Shown here in pieces: positions 2,063 to 61,653 of a stretch of 64,000 nt of DNA. Source of the DNA: a virus; the IMG/VR virus record IMGVR_UViG_3300032240_002575, positions 1 through 64,000 of that record; one strand, 5' to 3'. The notes beneath the pieces were generated by a model. It ran no database searches. It was not told the DNA's origin and saw only the letters and a list, made by a program, of their open reading frames with translations. Position 1 is the stretch's first letter. Each line of letters begins with the position of its first letter. The position numbers and the translations under genes are program-made.

Positions 2063-5000
2063 CCTACAAGACAAAGTGTAACTCCTGCCTGTGTTTTATA
2101 ACCAGGATTTTGAGAATATGTAATAACCGCGACTAAAGCTCCTGTTGAAGCGGTATAACCGCTAATTAAAATATCTTCTATAATATTATCAGGTGCATAT
2201 ACACTTAATGTTTGTCCTGGCGCCCATGACATATTTGGATACGAAGGTCCATTGTAGGGCTGTCCTACCGATTGAAAATAATAATCACCAGCTAAGAATG
2301 GTGTACAAATTAAAGGTGATGTTCCTGATGTTCCATCACTACCTGAAGTACCACTTGTTCCATCCGAACCACTTGTACCTGAACTTCCATCTGTACCACT
2401 TGTACCAGAAGTTCCGTCCGAACCCGATGTTCCACTAGTTCCTGAACTTCCATCTGTACCACTTGTACCAGAAGTTCCGTCCGAACCACTTGTTCCACTT
2501 GAACCATCTGTACCTGAAGTACCACTTGTCCCCGAACAAATACACTGATTTATTATTGTTGTATTTGTAGGGTCACTTGCTATTACTGAACCTTGAATTG
2601 CACAAAATACTGTAGCTACGTTAGTTATAGTTGTTGATGTCACATTGTAACAACAATCAATATATTCTACTATATTATAAGATTCTGGGATATTATAAGT
2701 AACACTGTATTGTACACATGTTGCACCGTCGGTACCTGATGTTCCACTAGTTCCATCAGAACCGCTTGTCCCGCTACTACCATCTGAACCACTTGTTCCA
2801 CTTGAACCATCTGTACCGCTTGTACCAGAAGTTCCATCCGAACCACTTGTTCCACTTGAACCACTAGTTCCTGAAGAACCATCTGAACCTGAAGTACCAC
2901 TTGTTCCTGAAGTTCCACTTGAACCGTCTGTTCCACTTGTTCCACTTGTTCCAGATGCTCCATCAATACCAGATGTACCCGAAGTACCATCTGTTCCTGA
3001 TGTACCGCTTGTTCCATCAGTACCTGAAGTTCCTGATGAACCGTCTGTACCGCTTGTTCCACTACTACCATCAGACCCACTTGTTCCGTCTGTACCTGAA
3101 GTACCACTTGTACCAGATGAACCATCCGTACCTGAAGTTCCACTTGTACCCGATGAACCATTAACACCACTTATACCACTTGTCCCACTTGTACCTGACG
3201 TACCATCTATACCTGAAGTACCACTTGAACCATCAGTTCCTGAAGTACCGCTTGTACCATCAGTTCCGCTAGTACCACTTGTACCATCGGTACCTGAAGT
3301 ACCGCTAGTTCCATCCGTACCACTTGTACCTGACGTACCATCTGTTCCGCTTGTACCATCCGTACCACTTGTTCCTGATGAACCGTCAGTACCGCTAGTA
3401 CCTGATGAACCATCTGTGCCGCTAGTTCCGTCAGTACCTGATGTACCACTAGTTCCTGATGCACCATCTACACCTGAAGTTCCGCTTGTACCATCAGTAC
3501 CTGAAGTTCCTGAAGAACCGTCTGTTCCGCTTGTACCATCAGTACCTGAAGTTCCTGAAGAACCGTCTGTTCCGCTAGTTCCTGAAGAACCGTCTGTTCC
3601 GCTAGTTCCTGAAGAACCGTCTGTTCCGCTAGTCCCTGAAGAACCATCTGTTCCGCTTGTTCCATCAGTTCCTGAAGTACCACTTGAACCGTCTGTTCCG
3701 CTAGTTCCTGAACTTCCATCAGTACCTGAAGTTCCGCTGGAACCGTCCGTACCACTTGTCCCAGAACTTCCGTCGGTTCCACTTGTACCACTTGTTCCTG
3801 AAGCTCCATCTATACCTGAAGTTCCGTCTGTACCTGAAGTACCACTTGAACCATCAGTTCCACTTGTTCCGCTTGTTCCGTCTGTACCTGAAGTACCACT
3901 TGTACCATCTGTCCCTGAAGTACCACTTGTACCATCTGTACCTGAAGTTCCTGAAGAACCATCTGTTCCGCTTGTACCGCTACTACCATCAGTTCCACTT
4001 GTACCTGAAGTTCCTGAAGAACCATCTGTTCCGCTTGTACCGCTACTACCATCAGTTCCACTTGTACCTGAAGTCCCTGAAGCACCATCTGTTCCGCTTG
4101 TACCGCTACTACCATCAGTTCCACTTGTACCTGAAGTCCCTGAAGCACCATCTAAACCTGAAGTTCCTGAAGAACCATCAGTTCCACTAGTACCACTAGT
4201 TCCGTCCGTCCCTGAAGTACCGCTTGAACCATCAGTTCCACTTGTTCCGTCAGTACCTGAAGTTCCTGAAGAACCATCAGTTCCACTTGTTCCACTTGTA
4301 CCATCCGTACCTGAAGTTCCTGAAGAACCATGCGTACCGCTTGTACCATCTGTTCCGCTAGTACCTGAAGAACCGTCTGTACCGCTTGTCCCATCAGTAC
4401 CACTTGTACCACTTGAACCGTCTATACCACTTACACCAGATGTACCTGAAGTTCCATTACTTCCATCAGTACCTGATGTTCCACTTGTTCCACTACTACC
4501 GTCAGTACCTGAAGTACCACTACTTCCATCCGTACCACTTGTTCCTGAACTTCCGTCTGTTCCACTTGTTCCTGAACTTCCGTCCGTCCCACTTGTTCCT
4601 GAACTTCCGTCTGTTCCGCTAGTTCCTGAAGAACCATCACTACCCGAAGTTCCACTAGTCCCTGAAGCTCCGTCAATTCCTGAAGTACCAGAACTACCGT
4701 CTGTTCCACTTGTGCCTGAAGTACCATCCGTACCGCTAGTACCACTTGAACCATCTGTTCCGCTTGTACCACTTGAACCATCAGTTCCACTAGTACCACT
4801 TGAACCATCAGTTCCACTAGTACCACTTGAACCATCTGTTCCACTTGTACCTGAAGTACCATCCGAACCACTAGTTCCTGATGTTCCACTTGAGCCGTCT
4901 GTTCCGCTAGTACCTGAACTACCGTCAGTACCGCTAGTTCCATCTGTTCCTGATGTACCACTTGAACCATCTGTACCTGAAGTACCGCTTGTTCCTGAAG

Positions 5001-7260
5001 CACCATCTATTCCTGAAGTACCGCTTGACCCGTCAGTACCACTTGTTCCACTACTTCCATCAGTTCCTGAAGTACCATTTGAACCATCAGTTCCCGAAGT
5101 ACCGCTTGTACCATCTGTTCCTGAACTTCCACTTGTACCATCACTACCAGAAGTACCACTTGTTCCTGATGCTCCATCTATACCTGAAGTTCCTGAAGTT
5201 CCGTCTGTACCTGAAGTACCACTTGAACCATCAGTTCCACTTGTTCCGTCAGTACCTGAAGTTCCTGAAGAACCATCAGTTCCACTTGTTCCACTTGTAC
5301 CATCAGTTCCACTTGTTCCATCCGTACCTGAAGTTCCTGAAGAACCATCCGTACCGCTAGTACCACTTGAACCATCAGTACCTGAAGTTCCTGAAGAACC
5401 ATCCGTACCCGAAGTTCCGCTTGAACCATTAGTTCCGCTTGTCCCATCAGTACCCGAAGTACCGCTTGAGCCGTCTATACCACTTACACCAGATGTACCT
5501 GATGTTCCGCTTGTTCCACTACTACCGTCAGTACCTGAAGTACCACTAGTTCCATCGGTTCCACTTGTTCCTGAACTTCCGTCTGTTCCACTTGTTCCTG
5601 AACTTCCGTCTGTTCCACTTGTTCCTGAAGAACCATCACTTCCGGAAGTTCCACTTGTTCCCGAAGCTCCATCGATTCCTGAAGTACCCGAACTACCATC
5701 TGTACCACTTGAACCATCTGTACCTGATGTACCGCTAGTTCCGTCCGTACCTGAAGTACCACTTGAACCATCAGTTCCGCTAGTTCCACTTGTACCATCG
5801 GTACCATCAACACCACTTATACCACTTGTACCCGAAGTTCCATCACTTCCTGAAGTACCACTTGTTCCGTCTGTTCCACTTGTTCCTGAACTTCCATCTG
5901 TTCCACTTGTTCCTGAACTTCCATCTGTTCCACTTGTTCCTGAACTTCCATCTGTTCCACTAGTACCACTTGAACCATCAGTCCCGCTTGTACCACTTGA
6001 ACCGTCAGTTCCACTAGTACCACTTGAACCATCTGTTCCACTAGTTCCATCAGTACCTGATGTTCCACTAGTACCACTACTACCATCTATACCACTAACG
6101 CCTGATGTACCTGAAGTACCATCAGTTCCACTTGTTCCACTTGAACCGTCTGTACCCGAAGTTCCGCTAGAACCGTCTGTTCCACTAGTTCCCGAAGTTC
6201 CGTCTACACCTGAAGTACCATCAGTTCCACTTGTTCCACTTGAACCGTCTGTACCATTAGTTCCTGAAGTACCATCAGTACCGCTAGTTCCTGAAGAACC
6301 GTCTGTACCGCTAGTTCCTGAAGAACCATCAATTCCACTTACCCCCGAAGTACCTGAAGTACCATCAGTTCCTGAAGTACCTGATGAACCAGATGTTCCC
6401 GTTCCACCAGTAAAATTAACTATTACATTCCCACCTCCATTATTGATAACAGAAGCCCCTGAAAATGTCATACCTGTAACGTTTGTTGCCGTTACACCTG
6501 ACGTGGCATCATAAACGGTTAGAGGACTTCCACCTCCACTTGTAAATCCTGTAATATTAACTGAAGAACCATCACTATTTTTTAATGTCAACGTACCTGT
6601 TCCACTATTATATGTTCCTCCAGTTACCGTACCTGTGAATCCAGTGATTGTAACTGTACCACCTGTATTATTATATAAATCTAATGTTGTTATTGCAGAA
6701 TAATATGTTCCACCTGTGATTTGAACGTCACTACCCCAAAATATTTGCCAACGGGAATCTAAACCACCTGTATATCCCTCAATAGTTGAGCCAGTCCAAG
6801 CATTTATAAACGCAGCACCTTCAGGTGTATCATCATAAACTTCATACCCTGTACCCAAATCATTAATTGAACCAACAAGTTCGGCAGCATTCCACAATGC
6901 TGTAAATGCGGTCATTGTATATTGATATACAGTATCTGTTTCTTGAACATAAACTTGCATACCTAATCTTCTACGACCAGAAGAAATTCCATCATTATTT
7001 AATTGTAAAATATTTGGAATGGAATATGGTACGTTGTATTGAAAACTAATTGGAATAGAGTTTCCTGAATATAAAACAGGTCCTCCATTAATTAGTACAT
7101 CGTTTGGTATTGTCCAATCCAAATCCGATAAGTAAAATACTTCCATGTACCCACCAATACTATTAACGGAGAATATAGTACCTGTGTCTGATTCTCTAAG
7201 TACTGAATTAGGTGCACTTACTAATATTGATGATGTCGGATTTTTATAGTGAAAGCTCAT
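1..7260 (-). CDS. Giant collagen-like tail fibre protein (C-terminus beyond window)
   Basis: The minus-strand frame starting at ATG 7260 stays open to position 1, giving at least 2,420 codons without the C-terminus; I checked the non-repeat parts and the frame at several points inside the repeats. Residues 1 to about 284 are non-collagenous, rich in Gly, Thr and Asn, and probably attach to the virion. From about residue 285 the protein is Gly-X-Y repeats, mostly GTS, GTD and GSS triplets with almost no Pro. Two non-collagen islands of about 65-85 residues, with several Cys, interrupt the repeat near 2530-2737 and 2062-2317. Phage collagen-like proteins of this kind form trimeric fibres or spikes. 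It lies downstream of the Thr/Pro-stalk and SprB-repeat proteins, in a fibre cluster. The variant TATTTAAT lies upstream instead of the usual TATTTAT motif. Function as a receptor-binding or side fibre is inferred from composition and location. Confidence 0.85.
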   Translation of the reverse strand, partial: MSFHYKNPTSSILVSAPNSVLRESDTGTIFSVNSIGGYMEVFYLSDLDWTIPNDVLINGGPVLYSGNSIPISFQYNVPYSIPNILQLNNDGISSGRRRLGMQVYVQETDTVYQYTMTAFTALWNAAELVGSINDLGTGYEVYDDTPEGAAFINAWTGSTIEGYTGGLDSRWQIFWGSDVQITGGTYYSAITTLDLYNNTGGTVTITGFTGTVTGGTYNSGTGTLTLKNSDGSSVNITGFTSGGGSPLTVYDATSGVTATNVTGMTFSGASVINNGGGNVIVNFTGGTGTSGSSGTSGTDGTSGTSGVSGIDGSSGTSGTDGSSGTSGTDGTSGTNGTDGSSGTSGTDGTSGVDGTSGTSGTDGSSGTSGTDGSSGTSGTDGTSGTSGVSGIDGSSGTSGTSGTDGTSGTDGSSGTSGTDGSSGTSGTDGSSGTSGTDGSSGTSGTDGSSGTSGTDGSSGTSGTDGTSGTSGSDGTSGTSGISGVDGTDGTSGTSGTDGSSGTSGTDGTSGTSGTDGSSGTDGSSGTSGIDGASGTSGTSGSDGSSGTSGTDGSSGTSGTDGSSGTSGTDGTSGTSGTDGSSGTSGTSGTSGVSGIDGSSGTSGTDGTSGTNGSSGTSGTDGSSGTSGTDGSSGTSGTDGSSGTSGTDGTSGTDGTSGTSGTDGSSGTSGTDGTSGTDGSSGTSGTDGTSGTSGIDGASGTSGTSGSDGTSGSSGTDGTSGTSGTDGSNGTSGTDGSSGTSGTDGSSGTSGIDGASGTSGTSGTDGSSGTSGTDGTSGTDGSSGTSGTDGSSGTSGTSGSDGTSGTSGTDGSSGTSGTDGSSGTSGTDGSSGTSGTDGSSGTSGTDGTSGTSGTDGSSGTSGIDGASGTSGTSGSDGSSGTSGTDGSSGTSGTDGSSGTSGTDGSSGTSGTDGSSGTSGTDGSSGTSGTSGTDGSNGTSGTSGVSGIDGSSGTSGTDGTSGTDGSSGTSGTDGTSGTHGSSGTSGTDGTSGTSGTDGSSGTSGTDGTSGTDGSSGTSGTDGTSGTSGTDGSSGTSGLDGASGTSGTSGTDGSSGTSGTDGASGTSGTSGTDGSSGTSGTDGSSGTSGTSGTDGSSGTSGTDGSSGTSGTDGTSGTSGTDGTSGTSGTDGTSGTSGTDGSSGTSGTDGTSGIDGASGTSGTSGTDGSSGTSGTDGSSGTSGTDGSSGTSGTDGSSGTSGTDGTSGTDGSSGTSGTDGSSGTSGTDGSSGTSGTDGSSGTSGTDGTSGTDGSSGTSGTDGTSGTSGVDGASGTSGTSGTDGTSGTDGSSGTSGTDGSSGTSGTDGTSGTDGTSGTSGTDGTSGTSGTDGTSGTSGTDGTSGTSGTDGSSGTSGIDGTSGTSGTSGISGVNGSSGTSGTSGTDGSSGTSGTSGTDGTSGSDGSSGTSGTDGSSGTSGTDGTSGTSGTDGTSGTSGIDGASGTSGTSGTDGSSGTSGTSGTSGSDGSSGTSGSSGTSGSDGTSGTSGTDGSSGTSGSDGSSGTSGSDGTSGTSGTDGATCVQYSVTYNIPESYNIVEYIDCCYNVTSTTITNVATVFCAIQGSVIASDPTNTTIINQCICSGTSGTSGTDGSSGTSGSDGTSGTSGTDGSSGTSGTSGSDGTSGTSGTDGSSGTSGSDGTSGTSGSDGTSGTSPLICTPFLAGDYYFQSVGQPYNGPSYPNMSWAPGQTLSVYAPDNIIEDILISGYTASTGALVAVITYSQNPGYKTQAGVTLCLVGARGSSGTSGTSGSSGTSGSSGTDGTSGSSGTSGSSGTDGTSGTSGTSGSSGTSGSSGTSGSDGSSGTSGTSGSDGTSGTSGTDGTSGTSGTDGTSGTSGVDGASGTSGTSGSDGTSGSSGSSGTSGSSGTSGSSGTSGSSGTSGTSGSDGTSGSSGTSGSSGTSGSSGTSGSSGTSGTSGSDGTSGSDGTSGTSGSDGTSGTSGSDGTSGSSGTSGSSGTSGTSGSSGTSGSSGTSGSSGTSGSSGTSGSDGTSGSSGTSGSSGTSGTSGSDGTSGSDGTSGTSGSDGTSGTSGSDGTSGTSGSDGTSGSSGTSGSSGTSGSSGTSGTSGSSGTSGSSGTSGTSGSDGSSGTSGSSGTSGSSGTSGSDGSSGTSGSDGSSGTSGTDGTSGSSGTSGSDGSSGTSGSDGSSGTSGTDGTSGSDGSSGTSGTSGISGVNGSSGTSGSSGTSGSSGSSGTSGSDGTSGSSGTSGSSGTSGSSGSSGTSGSSGTSGSSGSSGTSGSDGSSGTSGSSGTSGSSGSSGTSGSDGSSGTSGSDGSSGTSGSDGSSGTSGSSGSSGTSGSSGTSGSSGSSGTSGSSGTSGSSGTSGSDGTSGTSGVDGASGTSGTSGSSGTSGSDGSSGTSGSSGSSGTSGSSGSSGTSGSDGSSGTSGSSGSSGTSGSSGSSGTSGSSGTSGSDGSSGTSGSSG
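2737..6407 (-). repeat. Main Gly-X-Y collagen-like repeat block
   Basis: About 1,220 codons with Gly at every third position; X and Y are mostly Thr, Ser and Asp, with nonapeptide units such as GTSGTDGSS. Synonymous codon changes keep the 27-bp units from being identical in DNA. Such arrays are prone to length change and to assembly collapse, so the true length may differ. Confidence 0.9.
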
Positions 7261-15396: not shown

Positions 15397-15403
15397 ATAA
15401 ATA
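15397..15403 (-). promoter_or_regulatory. Candidate late promoter motif TATTTAT
   Basis: The coding strand reads CTATTTATAAG and ends 16 nt before ATG 15380, in the 25-nt gap after the PKD-domain gene. Confidence 0.55.
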
Positions 15404-55871: not shown

Positions 55872-56282
55872 TTATTTTACAACAAACAGTTTATCTTTTG
55901 AATTTATCATATCAATTTCCTGAGCTCGATATACAGGTTCTTCTGTATTTTTAAATACAAAAGTATCATATTTGTATGGGTTATAAGTTACAATCTTATC
56001 GGATGACGGGTTTGGTATTTCATCACATGGATATTCACAATAATCTAACAATTTACCTATCACAAAGGCATGAACATTTTTCCTTTGTTCATCCCTAACT
56101 TTTTCTTTCCCTACTTGTCTAACTCTAAACTCAACGTCACCAAGTTTAACATAATCAGCATACATAATAACCTTACTATCGTATGTAACTGAAAAAGTAT
56201 GTTTATGTAAATTGTAATATACCATTACTTTTTTACCTAAAAACAAATTATCAAATTGTGATTCTGTAATAACAACTTTCAT
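55872..56282 (-). CDS. Small protein upstream of tail genes, unknown
   Basis: 136 residues, not recognised. Begins MKVVITESQFDNLFLGKKV and continues with short beta strands; two Cys in a DYCEYPCDE segment; ends NSKDKLFVVK. The start overlaps the stop of the upstream gene by one base (TAATG) and the stop is 4 nt from the next gene, so it is co-expressed with the neck/tail candidates on either side. Confidence 0.6.
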   Translation of the reverse strand: MKVVITESQFDNLFLGKKVMVYYNLHKHTFSVTYDSKVIMYADYVKLGDVEFRVRQVGKEKVRDEQRKNVHAFVIGKLLDYCEYPCDEIPNPSSDKIVTYNPYKYDTFVFKNTEEPVYRAQEIDMINSKDKLFVVK

Positions 56283-56822: not shown

Positions 56823-56829
56823 TATTTAT
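56823..56829 (+). promoter_or_regulatory. TATTTAT motif, plus direction of divergent region
   Basis: Located 21 nt before ATG 56851 of the SNF2 helicase, oriented toward that gene. The 56-nt region between divergent genes thus holds one copy per direction. Confidence 0.5.
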
Positions 56830-56850: not shown

Positions 56851-58602
56851 ATGGAAGTAAGTTTGGAGTCGAAAGCGATGGCGATTCTTGAAACATATGA
56901 AGGTGGTAACAACTACCTTTTAGAATTAAAACGTAAATCACAGATTAACAAAAAATTCTACCCGACAAGAAGCCAATCCGAATACATTATATCATTCCAC
57001 GATAAGCAACCAAAGGTTGCCAAGAAGTGGGTGATTCTTGATGCTTACTTTGCCCAAAAGATGGCTGACGACAAGTTATACACAGAAATTCCGCAGAAAG
57101 TTTGGGTTGAAAAATTATTAGCAGATAAAGAAAAGGCTTACCATATTTGGGGAAAAGTTTTTGATAATGAAGAACTTCACGATTTTTGGTTACCAAAGGC
57201 TGCGATTATTAAAGACAATTCTGTAAAGGATGTTGTTATCGATTATTCAAAATATTCCAAACGTCCTCCTCTCAACCACCAAAAAGAATCAATTCAAAAG
57301 TTAGTTGAAAACAAAAAATTTATTCTGGCTGACGACATGGGTCTTGGTAAAACAACTTCGACGATAATTGCGGCGTTAGAAACAGGAGCAAAAAAAGTTT
57401 TGATTATTTGTCCAGCAACATTAAAAATTAACTGGAAAAGAGAAATTGAAAACTATTCAGACAGAAGTATTTTCATTGCTGAAGGTAAAAATTTCAGTAC
57501 TGAAGCTGACTTCGTAATTACCAATTACGACATTATTAAAAATTTTCACGACCCGAAGAAAAAAGATGATTCACAAATTTTGGCATCAAATTTTGATTTG
57601 GTAATTGTTGACGAAGCTCATTACATCAAGAACGCAACTGCTCAAAGAACAAAACTTATCAATGACATTGTTAAAAAAACTGAAAGGTTATGGATGTTGA
57701 CAGGAACCCCAATGACATCAAGACCGATGGATTATTTCAATTTGTTGAGTTTGGTTGAATCACCTGTCGCCAAGAACTGGATGGCCTACGCTATTAGATA
57801 CTGCGCGGGTTATCAATTCAAAGTTGGGAACCGTAAAGTTTGGAACGTCACAGGTGCTTCAAATTTGGAAGAATTAAGAGACCGAACTTCAGGATTAACA
57901 TTAAGACGATTAAAAGAAAACGTTTTGGATTTACCTGACAAAATTATCACACCAGTTTACTTGAGACTAAAATCAAAACAATATGAAGAGGTCATGGGTG
58001 AATACTATGATTGGTACGACAAAAACCCCGAAGAATCAAAATCACTAACGGTTCAGTTTTCCAAATTAACAAAAGTTAGACAAATCATTGCTGACGAAAA
58101 AATTGCACAAACAATTGAAATTGCGGAAAACATTTTGGAACAAGATAAAAAAGTAATCATCTTCTGTAACTTTACCGATTCGTTAAATAAAATTACCGAA
58201 CATTTTGGAAAAGCTGCGGTTAAATTAGATGGTTCTATGACAAAACCTGAAAGACAACACTCGGTAGACCAATTCCAAGAAAACCCAAAGGTAAAAGTTT
58301 TTGTGGGTAATATTAAAGCTGCAGGTGTGGGAATTACATTGACCGCTGCGGAAGCTGTTATTATGAACGACCTGTCTTTTTTACCTTCAGACCATGCCCA
58401 AGCGGAAGACCGAGCGTACAGATACGGACAAAAAAATAATGTATTGGTTTATTACCCAATATTTGAAAACACAATCGAAGGTATTATCTACGATATTCTT
58501 AACAACAAAAAACAAGTGATTGCTACCGTGATGGGTGATAACTTAAACCCAGCCGACGCAGCAGAAGAAATTCTTAAAAGAATTAACGACTTGCGAAAAT
58601 AA
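56851..58602 (+). CDS. SNF2-family DNA helicase/translocase
   Basis: 583 residues. N-terminal 130 residues are not recognised (possibly a HARP-like DNA-binding region). Motif I (Walker A) is DDMGLGKTT at 161-169; motif Ia includes LIICPATLKINWKRE; DEAH at 254-257; motif III LTGTPM at 283-288; motif IV near VIIFCNF; motif V GVGITLTAAEAVIMND; motif VI near residue 525 QAEDRAYRYGQ. The order is that of SNF2-type translocases; SMARCAL1-like annealing helicases are a possible relation. T4 uses UvsW for fork regression, so a similar repair role is plausible. It is on the plus strand next to virion genes, not in the replication island. Confidence 0.88.
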   Translation: MEVSLESKAMAILETYEGGNNYLLELKRKSQINKKFYPTRSQSEYIISFHDKQPKVAKKWVILDAYFAQKMADDKLYTEIPQKVWVEKLLADKEKAYHIWGKVFDNEELHDFWLPKAAIIKDNSVKDVVIDYSKYSKRPPLNHQKESIQKLVENKKFILADDMGLGKTTSTIIAALETGAKKVLIICPATLKINWKREIENYSDRSIFIAEGKNFSTEADFVITNYDIIKNFHDPKKKDDSQILASNFDLVIVDEAHYIKNATAQRTKLINDIVKKTERLWMLTGTPMTSRPMDYFNLLSLVESPVAKNWMAYAIRYCAGYQFKVGNRKVWNVTGASNLEELRDRTSGLTLRRLKENVLDLPDKIITPVYLRLKSKQYEEVMGEYYDWYDKNPEESKSLTVQFSKLTKVRQIIADEKIAQTIEIAENILEQDKKVIIFCNFTDSLNKITEHFGKAAVKLDGSMTKPERQHSVDQFQENPKVKVFVGNIKAAGVGITLTAAEAVIMNDLSFLPSDHAQAEDRAYRYGQKNNVLVYYPIFENTIEGIIYDILNNKKQVIATVMGDNLNPADAAEEILKRINDLRK

Positions 58603-58610
58603 GAAACAAC

Positions 58611-58637
58611 GGATTATTTATATAAAACGGATAATCC
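58611..58637 (+). promoter_or_regulatory. TATTTAT motif inside a hairpin
   Basis: TATTTAT at 58615-58621 lies 22 nt before ATG 58644 and sits partly in one arm of an inverted repeat GGATTAT / ATAATCC (13-nt loop). It could be a promoter for the superoxide dismutase fusion, or a weak hairpin after the helicase gene. Confidence 0.45.
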
Positions 58638-58643
58638 AATTTT

Positions 58644-60170
58644 ATGAAAAAAACAGAAGAAAAAATCCAACAACTCGAAACACAAATACTTGAAAACCAC
58701 GTTAACAAAGAGAAGGAGTTGTTGATTACAGAAATGAAAAAAATAGGGATAGAAAAATTACCTTACTCCTATTCAGCCTTGAAACAGTTTATTGACCCAG
58801 AAACAATGAACTTCCATTACAACAAACATTACAAGGGATACGTGGATAAACTTAACGATGCGTTATCAAAAAAGAAATACGGGGATTTAGATTTAGAAAA
58901 AATCATCAAGACCATAAGTCGTTTTGATAAGGATATAAGAAATAATGCTGGTGGAGCATTTAACCACGCACTGTTTTGGAACATGTTAACCCCTGAACCA
59001 AAAAAATTAGATGGTGAACTTTATAAAAAGATAACCAAACAATGGGGAACCTTTACAAATTTCAAAAAGGAATTTGAAAAACAAGCCAAAGATAGATTCG
59101 GGTCAGGATGGGTATGGTTAGTATTAACTTCAAAAAATACTTTGAAAATTATGTCTACTCCCAACCAAGACAATCCTTTAATGAATGTGATTGAAAATGG
59201 TGGATTCCCATTACTTGGGTTAGACTTGTGGGAACACGCTTATTATTTGAAATATAAAAACAAAAGAGACGAGTACATCGCAAACTTTTGGAAAGTAGTC
59301 AATTGGGATTTTGTAAGTAAAATGTACGAAATGAAAATTGAAACAAAGTTAGCCGAATCTACAAAAATGAAACAAGTTTTGAGTGAAGGAAAATCTGAAA
59401 TGTGCTCCCAATCGGAAAATGAATTTTACAGAGTTTTGTTTAATGTAAATTCAGATGTTAAATGGACATTCATGAATGGTATAAACAAAATCATAAAAGA
59501 AGTTTTCCCTGAAAACTACATATCAAATCCTGAAAACGATGAACTTCCAGGTGTTTATAATCTTGAAGGACCCGGTAGGTCTGTAATAAATAAATTGAAC
59601 ACGAATTATACTGCATTTTGTATTTTAGTCAAAGACATCAACAAAGTCATTGCAACAATTCCAATCAAATTTACCGATAAAACACCAGCACAACAAAGAA
59701 AAGAAGTTGAAAGATTTGTAAAAACCATTGACCATTTCAAATATAGAATATTTGATAAAGACAGCTCAACTTTACATAACTTATTAAGAACCCTAACGGA
59801 AAAAAATAAAGCCGGTTCAAAAAGAGAGGAAATCACCGCAGCAATCATGAGACGATATTTTGGTGACAAAGTTCAAGTTGATGTTGTTGGAGAGTTGGGA
59901 AGTAAAAAAGATGCGATTCAAGGAGTAGATTTGGAACTGACAAAAGAAGATGGTCAAAAATACACAGCTCAAATCAAACCTTTTAGGAATATGATTGTTG
60001 GTGAAGACGGGATAACTTTGGAAGGGACTGCAAGTGTTAAAATTTACAACACCGATTTGATGATTTTCCAAAAAGGAAAAAATGTTTTGATATTCAATAA
60101 AAAACCAAAAATAGTAAAAGGTAATTTTGTTTTTCCTGTTGATTCGTTGATGTATAATATACAATCATAA
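58644..60170 (+). CDS. Fe/Mn-type superoxide dismutase fused to a nuclease-like C-terminal domain
   Basis: 508 residues. Residues 1-35 look coiled-coil. Residues of about 36-225 are an iron/manganese superoxide dismutase: metal ligands H58 (MNFHYNKHYKGYV), H108 (GGAFNHALFW), D194 and H198 (LDLWEHAYYLKY), with second-sphere H62, Y66 and Q175 (STPNQDNPLM). Gln at 175 and Gly104 follow the manganese-type pattern. Superoxide dismutase converts superoxide to oxygen and hydrogen peroxide. The remaining 280 residues are different; the end (about 395-505) has E417, D429 and Q443-x-K445 in a strand arrangement resembling PD-(D/E)xK nucleases. No stop or frameshift separates the parts. A TATTTAT motif upstream and neck-candidate neighbours suggest late expression. 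The nuclease call is tentative. Confidence 0.85.
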   Translation: MKKTEEKIQQLETQILENHVNKEKELLITEMKKIGIEKLPYSYSALKQFIDPETMNFHYNKHYKGYVDKLNDALSKKKYGDLDLEKIIKTISRFDKDIRNNAGGAFNHALFWNMLTPEPKKLDGELYKKITKQWGTFTNFKKEFEKQAKDRFGSGWVWLVLTSKNTLKIMSTPNQDNPLMNVIENGGFPLLGLDLWEHAYYLKYKNKRDEYIANFWKVVNWDFVSKMYEMKIETKLAESTKMKQVLSEGKSEMCSQSENEFYRVLFNVNSDVKWTFMNGINKIIKEVFPENYISNPENDELPGVYNLEGPGRSVINKLNTNYTAFCILVKDINKVIATIPIKFTDKTPAQQRKEVERFVKTIDHFKYRIFDKDSSTLHNLLRTLTEKNKAGSKREEITAAIMRRYFGDKVQVDVVGELGSKKDAIQGVDLELTKEDGQKYTAQIKPFRNMIVGEDGITLEGTASVKIYNTDLMIFQKGKNVLIFNKKPKIVKGNFVFPVDSLMYNIQS

Positions 60171-60191: not shown

Positions 60192-61313
60192 ATGTCAGTT
60201 ATACCAGAACCAGAAAGGTCAAAAATTTATACCAGAATTAAACACTTGTTGGGCGCACCAATTAGAAGTGTAGAAATCGAAGATGAGATGATGGATTCTT
60301 TGATGGAATTATCTATTCAAGATTATGAAGAATATGTTTTGAATTGGTTAATTGATAGTCAATGGGTTAACTTAGTTAATCTTAATATGACTGAGAAATC
60401 TGTTGCAAAAGCATTGATTACAAGAACAATGGATTTTGAACAACAGTTTTCATACGCATATTCAAAGATTGTTGGATTACAAGCTCAAGGGCCTTGGGTA
60501 TTAAAGAAAGATTATATCATTCTTGAAGAGAATAAACAAAACTACGAAATTCCAGCTGGTCGTGAAATTAATGAAGTTTTATGGTTCAGTAATCAACCGT
60601 GGACCGCATTTGGTTTAGGTGGTATTGGTGGATTTGGTGGTGTTGGTTTAGGTGCCAACGAAGCAGGTTTCGCCCAAATGGGTTATCAAGGTTCTTACTT
60701 TATGATGTCAGGTTTTGACTACTTAATAAGAATGCAAGAAGCAAATATTTTGAACAGAATTCTTGGTGGTCAATTAACTTATAGAATTACCGCATTACCT
60801 GACGGTAAAAAAGATTTACAACTATACAACGCTCCTGGTAATAATTTTAATTGGAATAATTATAGTGGTTATGTTGGTAAAGCAGTTTGGTATTGGTATT
60901 ATGATGTAACTCCTGATAGTAGAGCAGATTGTTTGAAAAACAACCCTGACGTAATCAAAATGCCAAATGATGTTCCTTTGCAAGAACTTACTTGGACGGA
61001 CTTGAATGTTCCGGCACAACAATGGGTAAGAAGATGGTTTACCGCTTATGTGAAAGAAACTTTAGCTAGAGTTAGAGGAAAATATAGTGGTAATTTGAAA
61101 ACACCTGATTCTGAAATTACAATGGACTACACAAGTTTATTGACAGAAGCAAAAGATGAGAAATCAAAATTATTAGAAGAACTAACAGGTCCTGAAGGTT
61201 GGTTAACAAGATTAAGACCTGAAAAAGTTATGGAAAGAGAAGCATTGATTGCAGAGAACTTAAACAAACAAATGAAGTTCAGAGCAATGCCTCGTCAAAT
61301 ATATGTAATTTAA
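60192..61313 (+). CDS. Candidate neck/head-tail connector protein (gp13-like role)
   Basis: 373 residues. The N-terminal 110 residues are helical (SKIYTRIKHLLGAPIRSVEI, then IQDYEEYVLNWLIDSQW). A Gly-rich loop FGLGGIGGFGGVGLGANEAG lies in the middle, then a Tyr/Asn-rich beta region. The C-terminus has QQWVRRWFTAYVKETLARVR and then EITMDYTSLLTEAKDEKSKL. The WVRRWFTAYVKETLARVRGK-type helix followed by a beta strand and an acidic helix resembles neck proteins of T4-like phages. Position next to other head-tail candidates supports this; not proven. Confidence 0.5.
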   Translation: MSVIPEPERSKIYTRIKHLLGAPIRSVEIEDEMMDSLMELSIQDYEEYVLNWLIDSQWVNLVNLNMTEKSVAKALITRTMDFEQQFSYAYSKIVGLQAQGPWVLKKDYIILEENKQNYEIPAGREINEVLWFSNQPWTAFGLGGIGGFGGVGLGANEAGFAQMGYQGSYFMMSGFDYLIRMQEANILNRILGGQLTYRITALPDGKKDLQLYNAPGNNFNWNNYSGYVGKAVWYWYYDVTPDSRADCLKNNPDVIKMPNDVPLQELTWTDLNVPAQQWVRRWFTAYVKETLARVRGKYSGNLKTPDSEITMDYTSLLTEAKDEKSKLLEELTGPEGWLTRLRPEKVMEREALIAENLNKQMKFRAMPRQIYVI

Positions 61314-61317
61314 TATT

Positions 61318-61653
61318 ATGGCAATTATAAGAACAATACCCTCAAGGAGAATTATAAACGGAGAAGTTATAAATACATCAGAAATTTCTATAGTTTCTGA
61401 AAAAGAATACGTTACAAACGGTGAAGAATGTATCATTGTAAGAAATGTTGCAGAATCTACAATCATTTTGGATTCTAAAACAACTGACCACACTGTGGTA
61501 AAAGCAATGACAAGAATAACAATCAAACCGGACACTGGTAAAATAGATGAGGACTACGATGAAATCGTTGCCGACAAATACGCTTGTATTGAGTTTAGAT
61601 TCTGCTCGGGTAACTGGTACATCTTATCTTCAGACGGTCTGAAGAACTCCTAA
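61318..61653 (+). CDS. Small beta-rich virion-type protein, unknown
   Basis: 111 residues. Repeated beta strands with IIVRNVAESTIILDSKTTDH and a final RFCSGNWYILSSDGLKNS, the type of C-terminus seen in small phage decoration and fibre-tip proteins. It starts 4 nt after the neck candidate stop, so it is co-transcribed with it. Its last 24 nt overlap the end of the convergent polymerase gene. Function unknown. Confidence 0.6.
   Translation: MAIIRTIPSRRIINGEVINTSEISIVSEKEYVTNGEECIIVRNVAESTIILDSKTTDHTVVKAMTRITIKPDTGKIDEDYDEIVADKYACIEFRFCSGNWYILSSDGLKNS

Follow-up and report, generated by a model that had tools for sequence, protein, structure and literature searches.

The gene of interest lies in the 64,000-nucleotide stretch of DNA analyzed here (the window; positions 1 to 64,000 of the IMG/VR virus record IMGVR_UViG_3300032240_002575), where an uninterrupted open frame on the plus strand (58644-60170) encodes a 508-residue protein composed of a Mn/Fe superoxide dismutase (SOD) and a subsequent 270-residue domain that we predict to be a nuclease. 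The gene is the second in a four-gene plus-strand island. Directly upstream lies a gene for an SNF2-type helicase (56851-58602; phrog_62, E 3e-114, and synteny), and directly downstream a gene for a T4 gp13-like neck protein (head-tail adaptor Ad2; 60192-61313; phrog_211, E 5e-11), which also matches the annotated neck protein of Erwinia phage FBB1; the last gene, recognized by synteny, encodes a conserved protein of 111 residues (61318-61653). The island is flanked by minus-strand tail genes on one side and by a minus-strand family B DNA polymerase gene on the other, and all relatives inspected share its gene order, apart from contig ends and one or two relatives with broken frames. At two related loci (L182 and L186) the SOD-nuclease or helicase frame is in pieces, reflecting either sequencing error or decay. 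On the minus strand at 55872-56282, a 136-residue protein matches the Pfam family Phage_L5_gp82 (E 1e-30) and is found in the same place in some relatives and undetected in others.

The original prediction held that a single frame joins the two domains, with an assembly join as one way in which it could fail. IMG/VR was searched using three kinds of query, namely the full protein, C-terminal-half alignments and divergent members. After filtering for full length, 193 open frames with the intact fusion remained, representing 87 distinct sequences on many contigs, which bears out the fusion and rules out an assembly join. The most distant of these proteins share approximately 47% identity overall and 38-46% in the C-terminal module, and even at that distance no separate SOD or nuclease halves were found among the IMG/VR relatives. 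Each of the 13 records tested carries exactly one SOD. Purifying selection acts on both halves (dN/dS of 0.02-0.09 in the SOD half and 0.06-0.16 in the nuclease half), with the C-terminal half the less conserved. PHROGs contained no match to the fusion, and the nuclease half had no match in cultured phages or GTDB genomes in scans whose reach is limited to close relatives. The fusion is thus a real protein common to a widespread group of freshwater T4-like phages.

The SOD domain (residues 36-230; 58749-59333) is matched by both Pfam SOD families, Sod_Fe_N over residues 36-115 (78.1 bits against a curated cut-off of 27) and Sod_Fe_C over residues 124-226 (136.1 bits against 20.9), the two E-values being 5e-40 and 7e-22. 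Its closest solved structures are bacterial SODs, many of them deposited as MnSOD (best E 5e-58). Across an alignment of 149 proteins, and likewise across a wider set of 26 whose identity falls as low as 47%, there is no variation at the metal ligands H58, H108, D194 and H198 or at Y66 and Q175, all of which were named when the domain was first called; in the wider set, H62, E197 and Y201 are invariant as well. We take Y66 and H62 to be the gateway tyrosine and histidine, Q175 to be the second-sphere glutamine of the Mn type, and the E197/Y201 set to include the interface glutamate. By its sequence, this half therefore keeps the catalytic and dimer-interface residues of an MnSOD. Compared with bacterial Mn/Fe SODs (6pro, 6gsc and the E. 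coli MnSOD 1d5n), the whole domain can be aligned with all ligands and the Mn-type glutamine in place, whereas the phage protein adds an N-terminal helix and the C-terminal module, and carries GGA before the second-ligand motif where two aligned bacterial SODs carry GGH.

The C-terminal module consists of a helical part (residues 256-374; 59409-59765), delimited by the AlphaFold model and by the invariant positions of a GRSxxNxLNTNY motif, and a PD-(D/E)xK-like core (residues 375-508; 59766-60167), delimited by Foldseek matches and invariant residues. The model of the domain is confident (pLDDT 90.7, pTM 0.86; 21 relatives), and Foldseek places it with PD-(D/E)xK-type proteins at probabilities of 0.94-1.00 and E-values of about 4e-4 to 0.1. 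Against viral models the top match is A0A6J5L953 (TM-score 0.86) and the second A0A8D9CCA0 (TM-score 0.81), followed by NO VEIN C-terminal, phage P60 Holliday junction resolvase, VRR-NUC, DUF4365 and Mrr-like proteins, all of which we take to be PD-(D/E)xK families. The informative matches in the PDB are I-Ssp6803I (2ost, probability 0.98), BsaWI (4zsf) and AvaII, though their E-values are weak (best 0.035) and count against the support for the fold. At the level of sequence, no named nuclease family was matched above its cut-off; some members gave weak matches to DUF6602 (best E 0.0012), MC4 (4.6e-5) and EcoO109I (0.011), and a Pfam scan of the protein returned none of the RuvC, RusA and Endonuclease VII families.

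The catalytic residues proposed for this domain required partial revision. D429 (59928-59930) and the Q443-x-K445 motif (59970-59978) are present and invariant in the 149 sequences and the wider set of 26 down to 47% identity, but E417, the remaining acid of the original prediction, is a glutamate in 117 of 149 relatives and a glycine or lysine in 32; the invariant acid is instead E395 (59826-59828), which sits in a long helix of the model. D423, Y468 and D471 are invariant in the same two sets. Invariant columns make up only a quarter of the domain, and the complete retention of E395, D429 and QxK against this background argues for catalysis. On the strength of the model, we conclude that the domain has a PD-(D/E)xK core fold with an E-D-QxK set and is a predicted nuclease, in agreement with the earlier nuclease call and not with its counter-case, a structural fold devoid of nuclease residues. 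Its likeness to I-Ssp6803I, BsaWI, the P60 resolvase, NO VEIN, VRR-NUC and DUF4365 proteins is confined to the core fold and the E-D-QxK pattern, and it differs from PD-(D/E)xK nucleases in having its own helical N-terminal subdomain with the LNTNY motif. The whole module, subdomain included, finds a counterpart in A0A8D9CCA0, a much larger protein (1113 residues) from an uncultured marine phage, although at 18% identity, without close sequence similarity and in another setting.

A short sequence element bears on the probable timing of expression. The heptamer TATTTAT occurs 43 times on both strands of the 77.6 kb record, and 19 of these occurrences lie in the right orientation no more than 60 nt ahead of an inferred start, in stretches that account for only 1.9% of strand-bases. 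Those found 10-44 nt upstream of starts include minus-strand sites at 15403, 23865, 34288, 41981, 46973, 48870, 50375, 54586 and 56807, and plus-strand sites at 56823, 58615 and 60180, which precede the helicase, the SOD-nuclease (58615-58621, 29 nt before the start codon) and the gp13-like gene (12 nt), respectively. The genes that follow the element are mainly structural, tail genes among them, and it is absent before the ribonucleotide reductase (RNR), DnaB, exonuclease, UvsX and SSB genes. Of 66 distinct regions upstream of the SOD-nuclease in relatives, 62 retain it, including those of divergent relatives in which the remaining upstream sequence differs. The reverse complement of the heptamer corresponds to most of the T4 late element TATAAATA. 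TATTTAT may thus be a late promoter element of this phage group and, because it precedes many structural genes but not replication genes, the SOD-nuclease is likely expressed late in infection. The shared motif and the neighboring neck gene support the initial description of the surroundings as a late region.

This setting bears on one account of the protein, in which it is an auxiliary metabolic SOD that raises the superoxide defence of the host, with a C-terminal domain that merely tethers it to DNA or the nucleoid and whose nuclease activity has disappeared or does not matter. SOD genes are known from freshwater phages, where they have been read as oxidative-stress helpers (PMC6802176), and the stronger conservation of the SOD half would fit such a role. 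Nevertheless, a late-type promoter and a neck-protein neighbor are not typical of an ordinary metabolic gene, and E395, D429, Q443 and K445 never vary, even in relatives with 47% overall identity, although most of their domain drifts, such that we regard this account as improbable. The converse proposal, that both domains serve as folds rather than enzymes in a structural neck or head-completion component, draws on the gp13-like neck gene that always adjoins. It is opposed by the complete invariance of both catalytic sets and by the lack of relationship to the head-completion protein gp4 of T4: homology to this nuclease was considered and rejected (hhalign probability 0.3%), and a search of related records with the gp4 PHROG gave no match, its control being likewise empty. 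We consider a purely structural role highly improbable.

The fixed position next to an SNF2 helicase and a gp13 neck protein would also suit an intracellular enzyme of late DNA processing. The SOD would dimerize and shield a DNA end or junction from oxidation while the nuclease, working near the neck and with the helicase, would resolve branched DNA or trim ends during packaging, and the protein would stay fused and would not be ejected. The retained SOD interface residues would suit such an arrangement, as many PD-(D/E)xK nucleases act as dimers, and the fold search also matched a phage Holliday junction resolvase. Furthermore, RuvC, RusA and above-cut-off Endonuclease VII are absent from 13 records of the group, including those of 182 and 190 kb, though this is weak evidence given that the contigs may be incomplete and that other resolvase types exist. 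The missing profile link to T4 gp4 speaks against this proposal too, and it leaves the need for an SOD unexplained. In addition, the cultured Microcystis phage Mel-JY01, which is 68% identical in ribonucleotide reductase and more weakly similar in gp13, lacks an SOD-nuclease and carries PhoH ahead of its gp13 gene, indicating that the function is not universal. From this arrangement, the helicase/SOD-nuclease pair was probably either inserted in the SOD-nuclease lineage or lost in Mel-JY01. Taken together, we judge the intracellular role to be rather unlikely, though it is the main rival of the reading that we favor.

The reading that we tentatively favor, to which we assign somewhat less than even weight, sees in the protein a bifunctional precursor, made late in infection, that enters the prohead, is cut there by the prohead protease and leaves the particle with the DNA. 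This is prompted by the placement of [LI]xE motifs, which resemble the (L/I)xE sites of the T4 prohead protease. Only four such motifs are conserved in 88 aligned proteins, one inside the SOD fold and the others at residues 28-30, 236-238 and 246-248. The first of these three, present in 100% of the 88 sequences, ends an acidic N-terminal segment (residues 1-30; 58644-58733; pI 5.3) that is largely contained in a model helix spanning residues 2-33 and that we regard as a candidate propeptide. The other two lie in the interdomain linker (residues 231-255; 59334-59408), where E238 and E248 are invariant in the 88 sequences, of which 82% and 97%, respectively, have a small residue at P1'. In the full-length model, which is poor for the SOD half (pLDDT 77.9 overall) and was used only to show the flexibility of the linker, pLDDT falls below 50 at residues 236-246. 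The putative mature parts, in contrast to the acidic N-terminal peptide, are basic. The abundance of [LI]xE motifs was set aside as evidence for packaging because neighboring proteins have as many (0.79 conserved motifs per 100 residues here against 0 to 1.07), and the case therefore rests on motif position and the P1' residue.

A prohead protease is found in related phages. Both it and a capsid protein bearing LINE|A near residue 60 are encoded by two related genomes (182 and 190 kb), and in the related genome G001, whose SOD-nuclease is approximately 89% identical, the prohead protease and capsid protein are matched with E-values of 1e-33 and 6e-77. Neither gene was located in the window's own record, which is partial. 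In T4 the capsid protein is cleaved after residue 65 (PMC9958956), and T4-type prohead proteases, cutting after (L/I)xE, set internal proteins free for ejection along with the DNA (PMC9958956, PMC9026906, PMC5694885); proteins bearing a CTS are packaged, cut by gp21 and ejected (PMC9026906, PMC9958956). By analogy, the MnSOD, the flexible linker and the PD-(D/E)xK module would be made as one bifunctional precursor, driven by its own late-type promoter together with the structural genes, and collected into the prohead, where the protease would cleave after residues 30, 238 and 248. Two basic products, an SOD and a nuclease, would then accompany the DNA into the next host, where the former would limit superoxide damage and the latter would act on DNA. 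The late timing, the enzyme activities, the packaging, the cleavage and the target are all steps that we infer. The proposed likeness to the T4 internal proteins IPI-III and Alt comprises an N-terminal peptide that ends in [LI]xE, basic mature parts and the prohead protease of the related genomes; the phage protein differs in having no known sequence similarity to them, in combining two enzyme domains in one precursor, and in that packaging is established for the T4 proteins and proposed here.

Several points count against packaging. The P1' residue at the residue-30 site is a methionine, and the N-terminal peptide is not shared: no capsid-targeting peptide in common with other phage proteins was found in the two genomes compared. 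A nuclease stored with the phage's own DNA would also need restraint, though it appears tolerable in principle, since Staphylococcus nuclease placed inside T4 heads cut phage DNA only once Ca was added (PMC9026906). The earlier suggestion of a virion or injected protein gains only indirect support, from the [LI]xE motifs that flank the domains, the prohead protease and the capsid [LI]xE site in related genomes, while nothing was found to favor its companion suggestion, an effector aimed at rivals. The broader proposition that the incoming genome brings its own superoxide defence and a nuclease directed against host or competing DNA, both derived from a head-packaged, protease-matured polyprotein, we advance more cautiously still, as a possibility. 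The linker also resembles an N-terminal leader (KLTES...VLSEQ) of other proteins in related phages, as if the nuclease gene had once begun at the linker. In G001 and G002, several proteins (loci L212-L231; for example G001 108576-109043) start with a leader like KLTES..LVKRVLSEQ, and the density of twin [LI]xE motifs within the first 30 residues is about 3-4 times that found elsewhere. The leader could be a capsid-targeting leader or a sorting leader of another kind.

Each half of the protein is of a known kind, and it is their combination, conservation and setting that appear to us to be new. A search of the open-access literature found no published description of an SOD-nuclease fusion. The same fusion is present in the UniProt entry A0A6J5L953 (501 residues, from an uncultured Caudovirales phage; 48% identity over 476 aligned columns), which is annotated as a superoxide dismutase only, and no description of its second domain was found. 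Phage SOD genes are usually filed as auxiliary metabolic genes, yet here an SOD is joined across a whole lineage to a nuclease with an intact site, and its place in a fixed, probably late island beside a neck gene points to a dedicated step of the phage cycle in which protection from oxidation and DNA handling are coupled. The SOD and nuclease may thus represent a new kind of ejected enzyme pair. Several short unannotated records in the phage collection (OR84xxxx-OR85xxxx) carry ordinary bacterial SOD genes and may represent host contamination. With respect to the host of these phages, matches to Flavobacterium, Salinibacter and Fluviicola, together with an apparent lack of Shine-Dalgarno-like sequences, hint at a member of the Bacteroidota. 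Near the DNA polymerase gene, a minus-strand frame (4847-7180 of locus L172; about 64846-67179 of the record) encodes a 777-residue protein with weak matches to DNA methyltransferase PHROGs, which could modify phage DNA and thus matter for a nuclease.
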